Positions 286-8,617 of a DNA stretch of 8,622 nucleotides are shown one piece after another. The notes under the pieces were generated by a model that was not told the origin of the DNA, searched no databases, and saw only the letters and a program-made list of their open reading frames with translations. Source of the stretch: Propionivibrio sp. (GTDB lineage Bacteria; Pseudomonadota; Gammaproteobacteria; Burkholderiales; Rhodocyclaceae); assembly GCA_003249625.1 (NCBI GenBank), contig QKII01000235.1, positions 1 through 8,622 of the forward strand. Direction: 5' to 3'. Numbering within the stretch: position 1 is the stretch's first letter; the number at the start of each line of letters is the position of its first letter. The translations under genes and the position numbers were made by a program.

Positions 286-930
286 ATGACTTTGACTGTT
301 GATTCTCGTTCGGTTCGTCGCCGGGGACGGCCGTGTAAACACGCCGCAGACCTTGGGGAAACACGCGAATTGCTGTTGCGCACCGGCGTCGAGTTGCTCA
401 CCGAGCAGGGTTTTTCGGTGACAGGGATCGACCAGATCCTGCGCCGGGTTTGCGTGCCGAAAGGGTCGTTCTACAACTACTTCAAGAGCAAGGAGGCGTT
501 TGGTGCCGAGTTGATCGAACGCTACCGGGTCTATTTCCTGCGCAAGCTGGAAAGGCATCTGGGGGATACGGCGCTGACGCCGCTTGCGAGGCTCCGCGCG
601 TTCATCGACGACGCGAAGTGTGGCATGCAGAGGTTCGATTTTTCGCGCGGTTGCCTGGCAGGGAATCTCGGGCAGGAAATGGGAACGCTGCCGGAGCCCT
701 ATCGGGCGCAGCTCAACGCGGTTTTTGCCGACTGGCAGGACTGTCTGGCGCGGAATTTCGAGGTGGCGAAGACGGCCGGCGAGATTGCTGCGGATGCTGA
801 TTGCCAGCAGCTGGCCGCATTTTTCTGGATCGGGTGGGAAGGCGCGGTGATGCGTGCCAAGCTGGAGAAAAGCGTGGCTCCGCTGAAGATCTTCGCAGAC
901 GGTTTTTTCGCAAGCGTCGTCAGACGCTGA
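286..930 (+). CDS. acuR: TetR/AcrR-family transcriptional repressor, AcuR/NemR-like
   Basis: A 214-residue protein of usual TetR length. A basic stretch (RRRGRP, residues 11-16) precedes the helix-turn-helix domain at about 23-70, whose recognition part is the family-typical VPKGSFYNYFKSKEAF (57-72). The rest is the all-helical ligand-binding and dimerisation domain, with an RGCLAGNLGQEM segment (121-132) like that of AcuR and NemR relatives. AcuR in Rhodobacter represses acuI and responds to acrylate; NemR senses electrophiles through cysteine. Cys123 in the RGCL motif is therefore a candidate sensor residue, by inference. The gene next door encodes an AcuI-type reductase, and both genes have matching operator boxes. 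The ATG at 286 has no Shine-Dalgarno sequence and lies just downstream of the predicted transcription start. The family is certain; the AcuR identity rests on the neighbour and the operators, and another electrophile or quinone could be the inducer. Confidence 0.8.
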   Translation: MTLTVDSRSVRRRGRPCKHAADLGETRELLLRTGVELLTEQGFSVTGIDQILRRVCVPKGSFYNYFKSKEAFGAELIERYRVYFLRKLERHLGDTALTPLARLRAFIDDAKCGMQRFDFSRGCLAGNLGQEMGTLPEPYRAQLNAVFADWQDCLARNFEVAKTAGEIAADADCQQLAAFFWIGWEGAVMRAKLEKSVAPLKIFADGFFASVVRR

Positions 931-936
931 TTTTTT
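913..936 (+). terminator. Weak terminator or attenuator at the end of the tetR-family gene
   Basis: AGCGTC (913-918), loop GTCA and GACGCT (923-928) make a 6-bp hairpin covering the last codons of the regulator gene. GA and then T6 (931-936) follow. The stem is short, so termination would be partial at best. It could keep regulator transcription from running fully into the reductase gene, which has its own operator and a possible promoter immediately downstream. Confidence 0.4.
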
Positions 937-963
937 GCAGTTTTTTTAGACGATCGGTCTAAT
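935..963 (+). promoter_or_regulatory. Candidate promoter of the acuI-type gene
   Basis: TTGCAG (935-940, three of six) is 17 bp from TCTAAT (958-963, five of six). Operator box 2 (947-961) lies between them and overlaps the -10, repeating the geometry seen before the regulator gene. The predicted start near 970 would fall on the ribosome-binding site (AGGAGA, 968-973), which weakens the call. Readthrough from the upstream promoter is an alternative source of the mRNA. Confidence 0.35.
947..961. promoter_or_regulatory. Operator-like box 2 (probable TetR-family site)
   Basis: TAGACGATCGGTCTA has perfect 5-bp arms TAGAC and GTCTA around GATCG. It shares 12 of 15 bases with box 1 (257-271). It sits in the 48-bp gap between regulator and reductase genes, 17 bases before the GTG start. 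It is more symmetric than box 1, so it may bind the repressor more tightly. Confidence 0.7.
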
Positions 964-978
964 TCTCAGGAGAAGCAA

Positions 979-1962
979 GTGTTCAAGGGAATCGTTATTG
1001 AAAAGGATGAGGCGGGCTACCGCGCCGCGGTGAAGGATATCGATGAGGCGCAACTGCCGGAAGGCGACGTTACCGTCGCGGTGGACTATTCGACCTTGAA
1101 CTACAAGGACGGGTTGGCCATTACCGGAAAAGGTCCGGTCGTGCGTAAGTTCCCGATGGTGCCGGGGATCGACCTCGTGGGCACGGTGGAGGCCAGCGAC
1201 AGTGCCGAGTGGAAGGTTGGCGACAAGGTTGTGCTGAACGGCTGGGGCGTGGGAGAAACTCACTGGGGCGGACTGGCGCAGAAGGCGCGGCTCAAGGGCG
1301 AATGGCTGGTACCGCTGCCGGCCGCCTTGTCGCCGCGCCAGGCAATGGCGATCGGCACGGCGGGTTACACCGCCATGCTCTGCGTCATGGCGCTTGAACG
1401 GCATGGTGTTACGCCGGCCAAGGGCGAAGTCGTCGTGACTGGTGCAGCGGGCGGGGTCGGTAGCGTCGCAGTCGCACTGCTGGCGAAGCTGGGCTACACG
1501 GTGGTTGCAGTCAGCGGCCGGTCGGAAGAAGCGGACTATTTGAAAGGGCTTGGCGCTGCCGAGGTGATGGACCGCGCCGCGTTTGCCGCGCCGGGCAAGC
1601 CGTTGGCGCGCGAGCGCTGGGCCGGGGCCGTCGACGTCGTCGGAAGCCACGTGCTGGCCAATCTCTGCGCTTCGATGAAGTACGGCGGCGTGGTTGCCGC
1701 ATGCGGTCTGGCAGGCGGAATGGACTTGCCGACTACCGTGATGCCGTTCATCCTGCGCGGCGTTACGCTGGCCGGGGTGGATAGCGTCATGGCGCCGCGC
1801 GAAATCCGGATCGAAGCCTGGCGGCGGCTGGCGACTGATCTCGACCTTTCCCGGCTGGCAGTGATGACGAAGGAAGCCGGTCTGGCCGAGGCGATGCCGC
1901 TGGCCGTCAAGCTGCTTGAAGGGCAGGTGCGCGGGCGGTTGCTGGTGGATGTGAACGCCTGA
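979..1962 (+). CDS. acuI: Acryloyl-CoA reductase (NADPH), AcuI/YhdH family
   Basis: A 327-residue zinc-independent medium-chain oxidoreductase, the normal length for AcuI/YhdH. Visible family marks are LNYKDGLA (40-47), [13 protein letters not shown] (58-70), [12 protein letters not shown] (87-98), the Rossmann nucleotide loop GAAGGVGS (155-162) and SGR (179-181), which in this family binds the 2'-phosphate of NADPH. AcuI reduces acryloyl-CoA to propanoyl-CoA in the cytosol, clearing the toxic electrophile formed from acrylate, DMSP or 3-hydroxypropionate. The start is GTG at 979 with AGGAGA five bases upstream. The gene follows the AcuR-like repressor gene by 48 bp and carries that regulator's putative operator in its leader. 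No DMSP lyase or CoA ligase gene is present, so the physiological source of acryloyl-CoA is open. The family is clear; the substrate is taken from homology and the regulator pairing. Confidence 0.87.
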
Positions 1963-1975
1963 TCGGTCGGAAGGA

Positions 1976-2467
1976 TCACAAATCGGCGAGGGGAATTCCC
2001 TCGCCTTTTGTTTCAAGTGTTTCCATCTGGTCGAGAAGTAGCTGAAGGTCGCCGTGCAGTTCGGCCAAGGTGTCCGCCGGTAGTTTCTGCAGGGCATCCG
2101 GCAGCAGACCACGCAGCGGGCCGGGGGCCTGCGCCAGGCGCGACTGGCCGGTGTCGGTGACGTAGAGCCCGGCGACACGGTTGTCGCGCGTGTTCCGCTC
2201 CTTGCGGACGAGATCGAGTTCGATCAGCCGGGCGAGCAGGTTGCTCGCGGTCGATTGATGTATCGACATCGCGCCGGCCAGCCGGGTCAGGCTGATGCCC
2301 GGTTGCTCGGCGACGATGGAGAGCGCCCAGAGCAGCGAGCCGCGCAGTCCGACACGGTTTTCGACGATCTGGAAGTGCCTGCGGACGGACCTGAAGATGA
2401 TCCGGAACTGCCGTAGCACTTCCATGTCGAGTGTGACAGCCTGGGCTGCCGGAGGGTTTGCGCTCAT
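1976..2467 (-). CDS. MarR-family winged-helix transcriptional regulator
   Basis: A 163-residue protein of usual MarR length. The winged helix-turn-helix spans about residues 38-105. GISLTRLAGAMSIHQSTASN (57-76) gives the helix-turn-helix with its recognition helix, and RKERNTRDNRVAGLYVTDTG (88-107) the wing, with the DxR motif that is nearly universal in the family. Flanking helices (14-35 and 120-155) would form the dimer interface. It is the last gene of the otsA-otsB-mscS-marR operon. Its ATG shares one base with the TAA of the channel gene (TAATG), and no Shine-Dalgarno sequence is visible upstream, so translation probably depends on reinitiation after the channel gene. The ligand is unknown. 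Its target could be the palindrome in the otsA promoter at 6749-6760, an inference from operon membership only. Its 3' end contains the hairpin that terminates the convergent acuI transcript. Confidence 0.85.
   Translation of the reverse strand: MSANPPAAQAVTLDMEVLRQFRIIFRSVRRHFQIVENRVGLRGSLLWALSIVAEQPGISLTRLAGAMSIHQSTASNLLARLIELDLVRKERNTRDNRVAGLYVTDTGQSRLAQAPGPLRGLLPDALQKLPADTLAELHGDLQLLLDQMETLETKGEGIPLADL
1985..2013 (+). terminator. Intrinsic terminator of acuI, inside the 3' end of the convergent marR gene
   Basis: GGCGAGGG (1985-1992), a five-base loop and CCCTCGCC (1998-2005) form a perfect, GC-rich 8-bp stem followed by TTTTGTTT (2006-2013). It begins 22 bases after the acuI stop. The same bases encode the last residues of the MarR-family protein on the other strand. 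Read leftward, the hairpin is followed only by GATTTGTG, so it may work weakly in that direction too. Confidence 0.8.
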
Positions 2468-3525
2468 TATTGGGCTTTGGCGATGTGCAGCGTCTGTGTC
2501 GGGAAGGCGAATTCGATGCCTTCTGCTTCGAGTCGCTCGATCAAAGCCAGGTTGATGGCCTGCTGGGTGTCCATGTACTGGTTGTAGTCAGGCGTGAGCA
2601 TGTAATAGACGATCTCGAAGTCGAGGCTGCTGGCGCCGATGGCCTTGAAATGGGCGCGGTCGAGGCGGGTGTTCGGCTGCGAGCGAACGCTGTCGGCGAT
2701 GATTTCGTTGGCCTTGCGCAGCTTTTCCGATGAGGTTCCGAAGACCAGGCCGATCTGGAAGACGATGCGGCGCTCCTCCATGCGTTTCATGTTGCGGATA
2801 CGACTTTTCAGCAGGTCGGCATTGGACAGAATCAACTCTTCGCCGGTCAGGCTCTGGATGCGGGTTGTCTTCAGGCCGACGTGTTTCACGGTACCCATTG
2901 CCGTGTCGATGATGATGAAGTCGCCCGCGACGAAGGGTTTGTCGAGGGCAATCGAGAGCGAGGCGAACAGGTCGCCGAGGATGTTCTGTACCGCCAGTGC
3001 GACGGCGATACCGCCGATTCCCAAGCTGGCTACCAGCGTTGTGATATTGACCCCGAGGTTGTCGAGGATCATCAAGACCAGCACGATCCACAGCGCCATT
3101 TCGCCGAGGAAGGCGATTACCCCGTAGTTCATCGCCGCCGCGCCGTTTTCCGATTCCTGTGAGCGGCGTATCTGCATCGTGCGCCAGCCACGGATGGCAC
3201 GGTGTCCCCAGAAGCCGACTTGGGTCAGAAGAATCAGGGTGAATCCGTGGGAGATGATCTGCTCGAGTTTCGCAGGAAGCGACAGGTTGTTCAGGCCGAT
3301 CAGCAGGGAGATGCCGAGCAGCATCAGGTTGTGCGTGGCGCTGACGACGTCGGCGAGCAGGTCGTCCCACTGCGTGCTGCTGCGCTGAGCCCACTGGGTC
3401 AGCTTGCGGGTCAGAACTGCCCTGACCACATACAGAACTATAAACGCGACAATGGCTAGCGCCGCTGCCGTCAGCAACTGTTCCACACTGTTCTGTTCGA
3501 CGAAGCGCTGCAGGTATTTCATCAT
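2467..3525 (-). CDS. MscS-family mechanosensitive ion channel
   Basis: A 352-residue inner-membrane channel of the small-conductance family. Hydrophobic segments lie at about 16-38, 59-79, 88-108, 131-153 and 158-182. The last is the pore helix, with the glycine/alanine-rich run SLGIGGIAVALAVQNILGD (167-185) and FASLSIALDKPF. The beta domain follows (GDFIIIDTAMGTVKHVGLKTTRI, the LSNADLLKSRIRNMKR stretch, to about 248), then the alpha/beta vestibule domain ending in the typical FPTQTLHI (341-348). E. coli MscS has three helices and 286 residues, so this is a longer, five-helix relative. Such channels open under membrane tension and release solutes during hypo-osmotic shock. The first ATG (3523-3525) overlaps the otsB stop by four bases (ATGA) and has AAGGA at a good distance; a second ATG follows directly. 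Placement with otsAB ties the channel to trehalose-based osmoadaptation. Confidence 0.9.
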   Translation of the reverse strand: MMKYLQRFVEQNSVEQLLTAAALAIVAFIVLYVVRAVLTRKLTQWAQRSSTQWDDLLADVVSATHNLMLLGISLLIGLNNLSLPAKLEQIISHGFTLILLTQVGFWGHRAIRGWRTMQIRRSQESENGAAAMNYGVIAFLGEMALWIVLVLMILDNLGVNITTLVASLGIGGIAVALAVQNILGDLFASLSIALDKPFVAGDFIIIDTAMGTVKHVGLKTTRIQSLTGEELILSNADLLKSRIRNMKRMEERRIVFQIGLVFGTSSEKLRKANEIIADSVRSQPNTRLDRAHFKAIGASSLDFEIVYYMLTPDYNQYMDTQQAINLALIERLEAEGIEFAFPTQTLHIAKAQ

Positions 3526-4292
3526 GCGGATTCCTTTTGTTGGGTGCGAATCATGCTATCGATTCGCTGGATCAGTGTTGCCATTTCGTTTTGCGAATTC
3601 AGACAATAAGCTGCGGCCGACGGGGCGTCGTGGCCAACGCGGATGGTCAGCCAGTCGGGCAGTGCGCGGCGGAAAACGTTCTCGTCTGTTTCGTCGTCGC
3701 CGATGAACAGTGCGTTGCCGGCGCCTTCATGGCGTTGAAGGGAAAGCAGAGCGTCGAACTTGTCGGCGGAGTTGGCCGGCAGCAGATTCACCACGCATTT
3801 GCCGCCAATCACCCGCGGCTTGGGTGACAGCGTCTGCACCAACGCGTCGATGGCCTGCTTCGCTGCCTCGCGGTCGGGGGCGGTGCGGTAGTGCAGGGAC
3901 AGCGAGTGCACCTTGTCCTCGAGGAAGATGCCCGGCGGCAGGCGATCGCGGGCACCGTCGATCTGGTAGGTCCACGCTTCGGCGTCGGCTCGCGACTCGT
4001 TTGCTCCGGCGGCTCCGGGCAGCCCCTCGGCGCCGTGGTTGCCGACGATGTACTTGGGCGTGAAGTCGAGCCGTTCGCGGATGTCGGCTACCGAACGGCC
4101 GGTGATGACGGCAACGCTGGCGATCTCGCACAAGCGCCGCATGGCCAGGCAGATCGTCATCGGCGTGCGCGCGGCGTCGGGCAAGGGCACGATGGGGGCG
4201 AGCGTACCGTCGAAATCGAAGGCCAGCAGGGTGTTTCGGCGGATGAAGCGGCTCATCGCCGCCTCGCCTTGCGGGGAAAAGATGTAGCGCAT
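3522..4292 (-). CDS. otsB: Trehalose-6-phosphate phosphatase
   Basis: A 256-residue HAD-superfamily phosphatase that removes phosphate from trehalose 6-phosphate to give free trehalose in the cytoplasm. HAD motif I is DFDGTLAP (26-33, nucleophile Asp26 and acid/base Asp28). ITGR (63-66) fits motif II, and NHGAE (85-89) is typical of trehalose phosphatases. GGKCVVNLLP (163-172) and the DKFDAL segment supply the lysine region. GDDETDENVF (208-217) is motif IV, with magnesium-binding aspartates. The gene follows otsA with a one-base stop/start overlap (TGATG). A second in-frame ATG at 4256 (Met13) has GAGG five bases upstream and would start the protein closer to motif I. The longer form also has GGAG eight bases upstream, so the true start is undecided. 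Motifs and the neighbouring synthase gene make the assignment strong. Confidence 0.93.
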   Translation of the reverse strand: MRYIFSPQGEAAMSRFIRRNTLLAFDFDGTLAPIVPLPDAARTPMTICLAMRRLCEIASVAVITGRSVADIRERLDFTPKYIVGNHGAEGLPGAAGANESRADAEAWTYQIDGARDRLPPGIFLEDKVHSLSLHYRTAPDREAAKQAIDALVQTLSPKPRVIGGKCVVNLLPANSADKFDALLSLQRHEGAGNALFIGDDETDENVFRRALPDWLTIRVGHDAPSAAAYCLNSQNEMATLIQRIDSMIRTQQKESA

Positions 4293-6529
4293 CAGTGATT
4301 CTCCGTGTGGGTCAGCAGGCGGGCTTCGATCCGTTCACGCCGGCGGATGCGCGCGGCGTCGAGCAGCATGAAGCCGGCCCAGCGATATACGTTGTACTCG
4401 CGCACCGTGGCGCGCAGGGTGCGCATGCGGTCGCGCTGCTCGGCTTCGGGCATGGTCAGCGCGCGGTAGAGCGCATCGGCGGTTTCCTCTACATGGTAAG
4501 GGTTGACGATCAGAGCCTCCGGGAGTTCGCCGGCGGCACCGGCGAACTGGCTGAGAATCAGCACGCCTTGCTCGTCGTTGCGGCTGGCAATGAACTCCTT
4601 GCTGACGAGGTTCATCCCGTCATGCAGGCTGGTGACGACGCAGACGTCGGCACCGCGGTAGTAGCGGTGAACGGTCTCGCTATCCTGGTGCTGCGCCAGC
4701 AGGATGAAGGGCCAGTAGTCCGGACTGCCGAAGCGCTCGTTGATCTCGGTTTTACGCCGTGCCAGCCGCTCCTGGAAGTAACGGTATTCATCGAGTTCGC
4801 TGCGTGACGGTGCCGCGACCTGGATCAGCGTGAATTTTCCGATCAGTTCCGGATGTTTTTCCAGCAAGCGCTCTACCGCGTTGGCACGTTCGAGGATGCC
4901 CTTGGTGTAGTCGAAGCGGTCGACGCCAATGGCGATCATGCGGTCTGCGGGGAGATCGAATCGTGCGCGTAATTCTTCCCGGCACGCCTCGATTGAGGGC
5001 CAAGCCGCTTCTTCTGCCGGCTCTGGCCAATTGATCGAGATCGGATAATTCTTGATCAGTGTTTCCTGACCGTCGAGCGTGATGATCGAGTGCTCGTGCT
5101 CGATGCGCGTTTCCAGGAAGCGGTCGACGGTCTCGATGAAGTTCTTGCAGTGAAAGCGTGTGTGGAAGCCAAGGATGCTGCTGCCGAGCATTCCGCGCAG
5201 GATCTCCTTTCGCCAGGGGCAAATGCCGAATGATTCCGGGTTTGGCCAGGGGATGTGCCAGAAGGTGATGATCGTCGCATGCGGCAGGCGTTCGCGGATC
5301 ATTTGCGGCAGCAAGGCAAAGTGGTAGTCCTGAACGAGGATCACCGGATCGTCGGTACGGGCGGAGGCGACCACCTTGTCGGCGAAACGCTGGTTGACGG
5401 TCTTGTAGTACTCCCAATCCGAAACGCGGAATACCGGACGTACGTGCGCGATGTGGCAGAGCGGCCAGAGTCCTTCGTTGGCGAAGCCGAAGTAGTAGCC
5501 TTGCTCCTCCTCGCGGGTCAGCCAGACACGCTTGAGCGAGTAGGCCGGGCGGTCGGGGGGGACGCGGACGACGTCGTGTTCATCGACGGATTCCTTGTCG
5601 CCCGAACCGCTGCCGTGTGCGATCCAGGTGCCCGAACAGGCGCGCATGACCGGTTCGACGGCGGTGACCAGTCCGCTGGCCGGACGTTTGACGATGATGC
5701 CGTCGGGTGTCTTTTCGTGGATATAGGGTTCCCGGTTGGAGACGACCAGCACCTCGTCGCCGCGCAGGTCAGCGTGCAGCAGGTCGCGGAGTTTGTCGGG
5801 TGTCCACGTATGCGGAGGGGTTTCCCGCGATCGATGCTCTTCTTCCATTTCCCGCAGCAGGGTCCGGAGTTCGTGGGCCAGCGGTTGTAGTTCCGACGTG
5901 GGATTCTCGAACGCTTTGAGCGGGTTGCTGCCGCGCAGTAGTTCACGTACGCCAGTGACCCAGCCACGCAGACTGAGATGGGCGGTGATCACGGTGATCA
6001 GCGCGATCACCGAGCCGAGGACGACAAAGAACAGGATCAGGTAGCGGCGGGTAGCTTCGCCGCGTTTTTCGGCGAAGCTGAGGTCATGCACAAGAACGAG
6101 TTCGCCAAGGTTCAAAGGTGGGCGCCGCAGTGGTTCGACAGCGATATGCACTGAGCCGCGGGGGAGCTTTAGTGTCGGCGAACTTTGCATAATGACCTGG
6201 TCGGCGATGGGGCAGGTGATTCCATCCGGGAAGCCGCTGGTTTTTTCGCGCAGGTTGCCCTCGTGATCGCACAAGCCAATGCCGAGCATGCGTTCATTGG
6301 CGATCAGACGGTTGAACAGGGCTTCGATACGGACGTGGTCGAAACTGATGATGCTGTCGATGACGTTCTCGTTGATCGTGTTGGCGACCAGTTCCGCCCT
6401 GCTGTTCAGGTCGTGGACCGTCCAGCGCAATGAGAACCGGTCGACCAGCGGCACAGTCAAGTAGGCCGTGAGGGCGATGACAAGAAACAGTGGCGCGATG
6501 AAACGGAACTGCAGGCGAAAGGTGTTCAT
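4292..6529 (-). CDS. otsA: Membrane-anchored trehalose-6-phosphate synthase with N-terminal sensor-like and HAMP-like regions
   Basis: A 745-residue protein; stand-alone OtsA enzymes have about 460-490. The GT20 domain covers about 257-735 and keeps the expected catalytic sites: SNREP (264-268), [12 protein letters not shown] (348-359), [10 protein letters not shown] (400-409, Asp401), [10 protein letters not shown] (423-432, His425), [14 protein letters not shown] (535-548, Arg538 and Lys543) and [12 protein letters not shown] (635-646, Asp637 and Glu645). It should transfer glucose from UDP- or another NDP-glucose to glucose 6-phosphate. The first 255 residues are extra: a membrane helix at about 10-28, an extracytoplasmic segment of about 130 residues with an IGLCDHEGN strand-turn like Cache/CHASE-type sensors, a second helix at about 163-184, and a HAMP-like linker (185-232) ending [22 protein letters not shown] lies eight bases before the ATG. 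It heads a four-gene overlapping operon. Synthase activity is well supported; regulation by an external signal is inferred from architecture. A related sugar-phosphate acceptor, as in glucosylglycerol-phosphate synthases, is less likely because otsB is adjacent. Confidence 0.9.
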
Positions 6530-6743: not shown

Positions 6744-6772
6744 ATTATATTTGTACAAATCTATTCTGTCAC
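6744..6772 (-). promoter_or_regulatory. Near-consensus sigma70 promoter for the otsA operon
   Basis: Read leftward, the -35 is GTGACA (complement of 6767-6772, five of six consensus bases) and the -10 is TATAAT (complement of 6744-6749, six of six), with an exact 17-bp spacer. It is the best promoter match noticed in the window. A 12-bp palindrome occupies the spacer next to the -10, so the promoter is probably strong but controlled. Confidence 0.7.
6749..6760. promoter_or_regulatory. Perfect 12-bp palindrome in the otsA promoter spacer (candidate operator)
   Basis: ATTTGTACAAAT is fully self-complementary. It starts on the first base of the leftward -10 and fills most of the spacer. A dimeric regulator bound here would block RNA polymerase. 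Palindromes of this size suit MarR-family dimers, and a marR gene ends the operon, but the pairing is only an inference. The site also lies about 70 bases upstream of the GH15 gene and could affect both directions. Confidence 0.55.
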
Positions 6773-6829: not shown

Positions 6830-8617
6830 ATGGCGAACCTGAATCTCGGGTTGGTTGGCAACGGGTCGATCAGCGCGCTGGTCAACGAGCATGGGCGGAT
6901 CGTCTGGAGTTGTTTCCCGCGTTTCGACGGCGATCCGGTTTTTTGCCACTTGCTGCAGCCCGAAGGCCATGAGGCTGGCCGTGGCGCCTTCGGCATTGAA
7001 CTTGTCGACTTCTCCCACGCTGAACAACGTTACGAAACCAACACGGCCATTCTTATTACAAACCTCTACGACAGTCAGGGCGGCTGCGTCGAGGTGACCG
7101 ATTTTGCGCCGCGCTTCCATCTGTTCGGGCGGATGTTTCACCCGATGATGCTGGTACGGCGAGTGCGTCGGGTCACGGGAACGCCGCGGGTGACAATCAA
7201 CCTGCAGCCCTTGGCAAGTTACGGCGAACTGGCGCCCGAACTGACCTTTGGCAGTCACCATATCCGCTACGTCGGGCCGGAACCGACCCTGCGCCTGACG
7301 ACCGATGCGTCGATCAGCGCGATCATGGAACGGCGTCCGGTCTTCGTCGACGACACGATGACCTTCGTGCTCGGCGGGGATGAGACACTGCATGAGTCGG
7401 TCGAAATGGTCGGTCGGCGTTTCCTCGAAGAGACCCGCGGCTACTGGCACGGTTGGGTGCGCAGCCTGTTCGTGCCGGTCGAGTGGCAGGACGAGGTGAT
7501 CCGCGCGGCGATCACCCTGCAGCTCAACGCCTGCGAGGATACCGGTGCCATCGTCGCAGCGATGACAACCTCGATTCCCGAGCACGCCGACTCCGGGCGG
7601 AACTGGGATTACCGCTATTGCTGGCTGCGCGACGGCTATTTCGTGGTGAACGCGCTCAACCGGCTCGGCGCGACCAGTACCATGGAGAAGTATCTCGGAT
7701 ACATCCTCAACGTGGCGGCGGGCGAGGAGCACGGTGTCTTGCAGCCCGTGTACGGCATCAGCGGCGAAGAGCACCTGCATGAAGCTGTTGCACCTGCGCT
7801 GGCCGGCTATCGCGGCATGGGACCGGTGCGTGTCGGCAATCTCGCCTATGAGCAGATCCAGCACGACGTCTATGGCTCGGCGATTCTCTCGGCGACCCAC
7901 ATGTTCTTCGATCATCGCCTGTTTCGCCGCGGCGATGCCGACCTGTTCCGCCGGCTCGAACCGCTGGGGGCGAAGGCGCAGGCGAATTTCGATCAACCGG
8001 ACGCCGGGATCTGGGAACTGCGCGGCCGTACCCGCGTGCACACCTATTCGAGCGTGACCTGCTGGGCCGCCTGCGATCGCCTTTCGCGCATCGCCCGCCA
8101 GTTGAAGCTGAGCGACCGCGAGACTTATTGGCGCGAAGAGGCCAACCGGATGCACCGCATCATCTGCAAGGAAGCTTGGAGCGAAAAGAAACAGGCCTTC
8201 GTCGCCGCCTGGGGCGACGACGCGCTCGACGCCAGCATGCTGCTGCTGCACGAATTCGGCTTTCTCTCCGCGTGCGATCCGCGCTTCGTCTCGACGGTTG
8301 CAGCCATCGAATCCGAACTCAAGCATGGCGATTTCATCTACCGCTATGTCGAGCAGGACGATTTCGGCACGCCAGACAACGCCTTCCTCGTCTGTACGTT
8401 CTGGTACGTCTATGCCTTGCAGGCCTTGGGGCGCAAGGATGAAGCGCGCCAGATCTTCGAAACGCTGCTCAGCCGCTGCAACCCGCAGGGTCTGCTGGCC
8501 GAGGATTACTGCAGCCGAACGGGCGAACTGTGGGGGAATTTTGTACAGACCTACAGCATGGTCGGCCTGATCAACTGCGCGTTGCGTCTCTCCCGGCGCT
8601 GGGACCAGGCGTACTGA
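6830..8617 (+). CDS. GH15-family glycoside hydrolase (trehalase or glucoamylase-like)
   Basis: A complete 595-residue protein, the usual length for bacterial and archaeal GH15 enzymes of the trehalase/glucodextranase kind. The N-terminal beta-rich domain (about 1-200) opens with NLGLVGNGSISALVNEHGRIVW, typical of the family. The (alpha/alpha)6 barrel follows, with NWDYRYCWLRDG (258-269), PVYGISGEEHLHE (306-318), GIWELRG (393-399, Glu396 as likely general acid) and GELWGNFVQTYS (565-576, Glu566 as likely general base). The last motif is usually GNFPQAFSH in relatives; here it reads GNFVQTYSM. No signal peptide is seen, so it acts in the cytoplasm. AAAGGAG (6817-6823), six bases before the ATG, fixes the start. 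Mycobacterial and some archaeal GH15 members are trehalases, and the divergent otsAB operon makes trehalose a plausible substrate. Maltose, isomaltose or glycogen fragments remain possible. Confidence 0.88.
   Translation: MANLNLGLVGNGSISALVNEHGRIVWSCFPRFDGDPVFCHLLQPEGHEAGRGAFGIELVDFSHAEQRYETNTAILITNLYDSQGGCVEVTDFAPRFHLFGRMFHPMMLVRRVRRVTGTPRVTINLQPLASYGELAPELTFGSHHIRYVGPEPTLRLTTDASISAIMERRPVFVDDTMTFVLGGDETLHESVEMVGRRFLEETRGYWHGWVRSLFVPVEWQDEVIRAAITLQLNACEDTGAIVAAMTTSIPEHADSGRNWDYRYCWLRDGYFVVNALNRLGATSTMEKYLGYILNVAAGEEHGVLQPVYGISGEEHLHEAVAPALAGYRGMGPVRVGNLAYEQIQHDVYGSAILSATHMFFDHRLFRRGDADLFRRLEPLGAKAQANFDQPDAGIWELRGRTRVHTYSSVTCWAACDRLSRIARQLKLSDRETYWREEANRMHRIICKEAWSEKKQAFVAAWGDDALDASMLLLHEFGFLSACDPRFVSTVAAIESELKHGDFIYRYVEQDDFGTPDNAFLVCTFWYVYALQALGRKDEARQIFETLLSRCNPQGLLAEDYCSRTGELWGNFVQTYSMVGLINCALRLSRRWDQAY

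Follow-up and report, generated by a model that had tools for sequence, protein, structure and literature searches.

A trehalose-6-phosphate synthase with the front end of a membrane receptor: a candidate receptor-enzyme from Propionivibrio sp.

We analyzed a stretch of 8,622 nucleotides from Propionivibrio sp. (contig QKII01000235.1 of assembly GCA_003249625.1; the whole stretch is referred to as the window), which codes for a trehalose-6-phosphate synthase (TPS) of family GT20 preceded by a receptor-like membrane module. The gene for this protein, here called the receptor-TPS, is read from the minus strand (6529→4292), and the same interval read on the plus strand contains 9 stops. It is the first of an overlapping otsA-otsB-mscS-marR series (Table 1). 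The layout of the protein is established and consists of a first transmembrane (TM) helix, a sensor domain, a second TM helix, a HAMP-like segment, a linker helix, and the GT20 domain. Hydropathy gives two hydrophobic stretches spaced by ~130 residues, and the AlphaFold model has the same arrangement, which agrees with a first-pass annotation that had predicted two membrane helices and an extracytoplasmic segment of about this length in front of the enzyme.

The front end is related to histidine kinase receptors. A profile of the N-terminal region was searched against 149 genomes from the phylum of the L055 genome (titled Acidobacteria), and three strong matches fell in frames without GT20, covering profile positions 3-240, 4-241, and 4-242 with E values of 1.3e-15, 2.4e-16, and 1.5e-16. 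These three frames (L248-L250) are histidine kinases in which HAMP, HisKA, and HATPase_c each score above the Pfam cut-off. When a profile of 75 TPS N termini was compared with a profile of the three kinases, the match reached a probability of 98.4% and a score of 100.4 over 227 columns, extending through HAMP. One hundred column shuffles scored 22.3 at most, a margin that is somewhat flattered because shuffling disrupts the hydrophobic runs, and without the four TPS rows that diverge most, the probability was still 97.2% and the score 78.3. The helix-connector-helix that follows TM2 (residues 151-198 and 215-236) aligns with the true HAMP of these kinases. By this comparison of sequences, the homology between the front end and the kinase receptor module takes in HAMP, although the HAMP sequence has diverged. 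Kinase-like frames such as L251, L252, and L253 gave weaker front-end matches, and the L248-L250 kinases are possible kin of the source of the fusion.

Direct searches for HAMP were less clear. Pfam HAMP (PF00672) gave no match in the receptor-TPS or in 36 representatives of the family, and it was not among the 25 families shown of the 49 matched in a Pfam scan of the 75 N termini. The comparison by hhalign of the N terminus with HAMP domains of six related genomes (30 domains in all) was in the right register with a marginal score of 17.0, where 200 shuffles gave up to 16.7 and two other stretches of the receptor-TPS 16.0 and 16.4. As the Pfam search was negative and this score marginal, the assignment of HAMP rests on the comparison with the L248-L250 kinases. 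The HAMP-like linker of the first-pass annotation, which was to fall if membrane helices or a HAMP match on profile search were lacking, is supported: the plain Pfam search goes half way toward refuting it by finding no HAMP, but the profile-profile comparison ties the segment to genuine kinase HAMP domains.

The AlphaFold model of residues 1-258 (mean predicted local distance difference test score, 89.6) begins with a single long helix (2-61) that extends out of TM1 into a mixed alpha/beta extracytoplasmic domain, after which one helix (151-198) passes through TM2 and is followed by a connector and a further helix (215-236). This arrangement, in which the sensor sits between the two TM helices and its long first helix prolongs TM1, is the one that the available text of PMC4822843 gives for Cache-type receptors. 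In a fold search, the predicted sensor structure matched kinase and chemoreceptor domains of the Cache/PDC type (WalK, LuxQ, and CitA), with WalK and LuxQ at the top, so that the predicted sensor shares its fold with solved Cache/PDC sensor domains. Going by its homology with the kinases, it presumably faces the outside of the membrane. The receptor-type front end of the first-pass annotation is thus upheld by these fold matches as well as by the homology to kinases. No Pfam Cache family matched the N terminus of the receptor-TPS; one divergent member of the family, L187, scored 27.2 bits to sCache_3_2, just under the cut-off of 28.4. The leading Pfam match among the 75 N termini was Adeno_E3B (31 members, best E value 2.8e-4), which we took as a match of transmembrane composition. 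Near-invariant residues of the sensor are D40, R44, R80, C87, C106, D149, and R156, and D40, R44, and D149, together with W242 and L247 of the linker, are invariant in all 75 N termini. The pattern of cysteines predicts a C87-C106 disulfide. Six receptor-TPS proteins (L195, L196, L199, L105, L110, and L111) have strongly diverged sensors (28-80 bits to the N-terminal profile) with similar TM spacing, and their lineages may respond to different signals.

A constant feature of the junction with the enzyme is a W....L motif in front of GT20, present in 99 of 99 frames with two TM helices, very diverged sensors included. A T or S follows the W in 72 of them. Six of the 84 other frames also have W....L, namely, two truncated members of the membrane clade described below (L046 and L058), three with chance spacing (L101, L128, and L135), and the soluble L184. 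In 11 pairs of related loci, the ratio of nonsynonymous to synonymous substitution rates (dN/dS) was 0.02-0.35 for the N terminus and 0.02-0.20 for GT20, with several dS values saturated. The N-terminal values, which exclude a chance open reading frame (ORF), were the higher ones in 10 of the 11 pairs, as expected for a sensor. From these substitution patterns, the whole protein is under selection.

The GT20 domain scores 411.1 bits against a Pfam cut-off of 32.5, and two further weak glycosyltransferase matches of Pfam overlap it. We compared it with a list of 17 positions that we take to be the active site of Escherichia coli OtsA, numbered without the initial Met. Sixteen are identical (R9, G22, Y76, W85, D130, H154, R262, K267, R300, H338, D340, D361, M363, N364, L365, and E369), while position 40, presumed to be Trp, proves to be Gly in E. 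coli OtsA itself and is uninformative. Across 36 sequences, 14 of the 16 matching positions are universal, H338 is found in 32 and D340 in 6. Judged by these residues, the TPS active site is intact, and the catalytic motifs that the first-pass annotation described as intact are confirmed to that extent. The domain scores below the curated cut-offs of all four NCBIfam GT20 models that it matches, including the OtsA equivalog TIGR02400 (421.9 versus 564.85) and the glucosylglycerol-phosphate synthase TIGR02398 (291.1 versus 569), and appears to be a divergent subfamily with trehalose-6-phosphate as the putative product. An NCBIfam match to DgcN (E value 0.12) was set aside.

The same architecture, for which a search of other genomes had been proposed, recurs across several phyla. 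Residues 1-250 matched 366 proteins at an E value of ≤1e-3, of which the best 120, selected by N-terminal likeness, were examined. All 114 proteins of at least 700 residues among the 120 matches listed have exactly two hydrophobic stretches within their first 400 residues, a count that measures conservation of form and not frequency among GT20 proteins. Most of the matches listed that carry a name from their source are called plain trehalose-6-phosphate synthase. A scan of genome contigs gave at least 588 stretches, at least 575 of them confirmed, and the best 80 loci, chosen for likeness to the whole query, were used. The front end is found in all 80 (in one only partly, at a contig end) and in 80 of their 81 GT20 frames. 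The remaining frame is a soluble paralogue in L062 (13759-17242, minus strand), ~3.5 kb from the receptor-TPS, with MscS-like and OtsB-like matches on the opposite strand. Carrier genomes are labeled Pseudomonadota, Thermodesulfobacteriota, Nitrospirota, Acidobacteriota, and Bdellovibrionota, and the titles of their records name Burkholderiales, Rhodocyclaceae, Geobacteraceae, Smithella, Nitrospira, Bdellovibrionota, Acidobacteria, Gemmatimonadetes, and Verrucomicrobia; many of these records are metagenome bins, whose taxon labels can err. In three evenly sampled phyla, GT20 scored above the cut-off in 57 of 148, 56 of 149, and 38 of 100 genomes and the front-end profile matched 14, 22, and 19; with the frames read by eye, 13, 15, and 15 of the latter have the front end joined to or directly beside GT20. 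Within the class of Rubrivivax, the N terminus of the receptor-TPS alone matches 6 of 185 genomes, and GT20 is above the cut-off in 25; Rubrivivax gelatinosus is a carrier that grows in the laboratory. The receptor-TPS was the sole GT20 protein in 14 of 16 carrier genomes checked.

In a GT20 tree of 147 rows, all 63 rows with two TM helices fall in one group of 65 (SH-aLRT, the Shimodaira-Hasegawa-like approximate likelihood ratio test, of 97), the other two being the contig-end fragment L058 and L046, which has one hydrophobic stretch; both bear the label soluble in the tree. This was a quick tree, with SH-aLRT support only, a midpoint root, and warnings of long branches and composition; it omitted the duplicates L081-L096, the majority of the even-numbered loci with two TM helices among L001-L080, and any row with a GT20 match beginning past profile position 30. 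A single fusion event followed by spread would fit this topology, though it is unproved. The closest branches to the membrane clade are two soluble proteins, L183 and L184, of which only L184 has a Trp with the spacing of the linker (W....L); the pair could be useful to date either the fusion or a loss of this module. We also looked for the N terminus on other proteins of ~142-451 residues, scoring the best 7993 candidates. Several of the 29 matches bear the name or the Pfam mark of a partial trehalose-6-phosphate synthase, and none of the 29 is marked with another output domain, as judged by names and Pfam marks and not by individual inspection. One further frame, L260 (1206-1916, minus strand; 237 residues, profile positions 3-188), carries the front end with no GT20 in that frame, in a genome that also has two full receptor-TPS frames.

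Table 1. Features of the window and of the three histidine kinase frames with a homologous front end
Sequence	Feature	Position	Strand	Evidence or remarks
Window	Receptor-TPS gene (otsA-type), 745 residues	4292..6529	-	ORF; Pfam GT20, E 7.8e-123
Window	TM1, residues ~10-29, runs on into long first sensor helix (predicted helix 2-61)	6443..6502	-	Hydropathy; AlphaFold model
Window	Predicted extracytoplasmic Cache/PDC-like sensor domain, residues ~30-158, paired conserved cysteines C87 and C106	6056..6442	-	Model; fold matches; conservation
Window	TM2, residues ~161-186	5972..6049	-	Hydropathy; model
Window	HAMP-like segment, residues ~187-236	5822..5971	-	In-register alignment to HAMP of kinases L248-L250; no direct Pfam match
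Window	Linker with Trp242 (W....L) and helix 244-254, between HAMP-like segment and GT20	5756..5821	-	Conservation; model
Window	GT20 trehalose-6-phosphate synthase domain, residues 259-721	4367..5755	-	Pfam
Window	otsB, trehalose-6-phosphate phosphatase	3522..4292	-	Pfam PF02358, E 5e-20; TIGR00685 above cut-off; start overlaps otsA stop by one base (TGATG)
Window	MscS-family mechanosensitive channel	2467..3525	-	Pfam MS_channel domains; overlaps otsB by 4 bases (ATGA)
Window	MarR-family regulator	1976..2467	-	Pfam MarR, E 4.1e-10; overlaps mscS by 1 base (TAATG)
Window	Divergent GH15 trehalase-like glycoside hydrolase, near window end	6830..8617	+	Pfam Glyco_hydro_15, 5.3e-49; TREH_N, 9.8e-9
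Window	Sigma-70-like promoter match GTGACA-17-TATAAT, upstream of otsA series	6744..6772	-	11/12 matches, 0.3 expected; consensus match only
Window	TetR-family regulator	286-930	+	Pfam
Window	Zinc-binding-dehydrogenase-type oxidoreductase	979-1962	+	ADH_N, ADH_zinc_N; after TetR gene
L248	Histidine kinase	386-1897	+	Front end TM-sensor-TM-HAMP homologous to TPS front end
L249	Histidine kinase	973-2484	-	Front end TM-sensor-TM-HAMP homologous to TPS front end
L250	Histidine kinase	1186-2640	+	Front end TM-sensor-TM-HAMP homologous to TPS front end

Within 4 kb of the receptor-TPS, the 80 loci contain otsB in 69 cases, GH15 in 50, MarR in 21, and MscS in 13. Expressed per 100 kb near and far from the gene, the rates are 12.3 and 0.2 for otsB, 8.9 and 0.2 for GH15, 3.8 and 0.4 for MarR, and 2.3 and 0.9 for MscS, the far values being based on 1, 1, 2, and 4 matches, respectively. 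From these counts, the steady partners are otsB and the trehalase-like GH15 gene, and MscS is an occasional one. The GH15 protein of the window scores 286 bits to archaeal TreH1, far under the cut-off of 820, so trehalase is a putative role. The TetR and oxidoreductase genes at the other end of the window are likely a separate pair.

We favor the reading that the receptor-TPS is a receptor-enzyme, in which the periplasmic domain controls TPS activity through a HAMP-like relay, and give it a probability of about 0.7. A kinase-type receptor module is joined to a GT20 synthase in the place usual for a signaling output domain. The protein would act as an oligomer, either a dimer or a larger assembly; a signal received by the periplasmic Cache-like domain would shift the TM helices, and the HAMP-like unit would hand the change on via the Trp242 linker helix, so that cytoplasmic TPS activity would rise or fall; OtsB, made from the overlapping frame, would then complete trehalose. 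The coupling is suggested by the conserved linker and by the role of this module elsewhere, and the oligomer and the sign of control are likewise presumed. Two results weigh against this reading, the negative Pfam search for HAMP across the family and the presence of MscS-type genes in only 13 of the 80 neighborhoods; owing to the latter, an osmotic signal remains a guess. We also think it fairly probable that the receptor-TPS proteins form a widespread one-protein class, in which a Cache-HAMP receptor gates a biosynthetic enzyme and an outside signal sets trehalose synthesis at the membrane without a kinase, second messenger, or transcription, the receptor-TPS being the sole GT20-family TPS in most carriers examined.

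As to the signal, the osmotic or envelope state, which the first-pass annotation also proposed, is our leading guess, a tentative one, and a small periplasmic ligand is the next. The neighboring mscS and otsB genes would suit an osmotic role. It is possible that a periplasmic solute, such as trehalose, glucose, or an organic acid, is sensed instead of the osmotic state, which would amount to feedback or nutrient control and overlaps with the receptor-enzyme reading. The solved domains matched by the predicted sensor include ligand-binding Cache/PDC domains (CitA, which binds citrate; DctB, malonate or succinate; and chemoreceptors, amino acids), and the trehalase-like GH15 gene is close by in most of the loci. 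However, no known ligand motif came up, without a systematic search for one, and the top fold matches, WalK and LuxQ, are not known to be simple metabolite binders.

The front end could instead be a membrane anchor, a former receptor module that merely holds TPS at the inner membrane beside the MscS channel or a transporter with no signaling. The loss of a HAMP sequence recognizable by Pfam and the faster evolution of the N terminus are in line with such a role, but an anchor requires neither a periplasmic domain, nor the linker, nor both helices. In the receptor-TPS family, conservation across phyla extends beyond a TM helix to the entire periplasmic domain with its near-invariant residues, the Trp linker is found in every two-TM frame, and both hydrophobic helices are present in all of the long homologues among the matches listed. 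For this reason, we regard the anchor as unlikely. A different product of the GT20 domain, for instance another glucosyl phosphate compatible solute in place of trehalose-6-phosphate, would be in keeping with scores under all four NCBIfam cut-offs, those of TIGR02400 and TIGR02398 included, and seems quite improbable to us. Lastly, a wrong start codon or gene-calling artefact, with a soluble true enzyme starting near residue 250, has next to no chance: some GT20 relatives are indeed soluble, those of the nearest outgroup (L183 and L184) among them, but the N-terminal dN/dS is low, the front end shares homology with the receptors of kinases, its fold is confidently predicted, and it is present in each of the best 80 loci (chosen for likeness to the whole query), the single partial case among them included.

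We found no description of a fusion of this kind in the literature searched, whose coverage was incomplete, with subscription journals mostly outside it, so that absence is unproven. According to the available text of a 2016 census (PMC4822843), Cache domains, SMP_2 excepted, are sensors for known signaling outputs (kinases, cyclases, diesterases, and chemotaxis transducers), and the census models were built from proteins with signaling output domains, so other outputs may have escaped them.

Compared with known systems, the receptor-TPS shares its fold, active-site residues, and otsB neighbor with the GT20 enzymes of the OtsA/TPS type (E. coli OtsA and the Mycobacterium thermoresistibile TPS, 5jio). 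In the solved bacterial TPS structures that matched, the chains are ~455-515 residues long and their alignment begins where GT20 does, whereas the receptor-TPS is longer at its N terminus by 258 residues, two membrane helices included. GT20 is also fused to another domain in fusions of TPS with trehalose-6-phosphate phosphatase (TPP), but there the partner is a C-terminal phosphatase, and the tree places these proteins outside the membrane clade. A parallel in gene order is the tpsp-gt-msc operon of Thermoproteus tenax, as described in the available text of PMC3634074, where a TPS-TPP gene is accompanied by a putative mechanosensitive channel, TPS activity is under posttranslational control by the partner glycosyltransferase, and synthesis is proposed to occur under stress, with the channel serving for release. 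Both TPS genes thus share an operon or gene series with a mechanosensitive channel, but the T. tenax enzyme is a TPS-TPP fusion controlled by a separate protein, and that text mentions no receptor module. With the Cache/PDC histidine kinases (WalK, LuxQ, CitA, and L248-L250), the receptor-TPS has in common TM1 with a long helical extension, a Cache-like domain, TM2, and a HAMP region, together with a sequence homology to L248-L250 that is still detectable. Unlike them, it has a diverged HAMP and no kinase, cyclase, or chemoreceptor output that we could find; its output is a biosynthetic glycosyltransferase. If the receptor-enzyme reading is correct, this would extend the list of Cache outputs to a metabolic glycosyltransferase and to direct control of an osmolyte pathway, and it would suggest how carriers among Burkholderiales, Nitrospira, and relatives of Geobacter could set trehalose synthesis quickly. 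With a single soluble product to assay, the receptor-TPS, in which a receptor module of known type carries a new kind of output, would be a clean test case.
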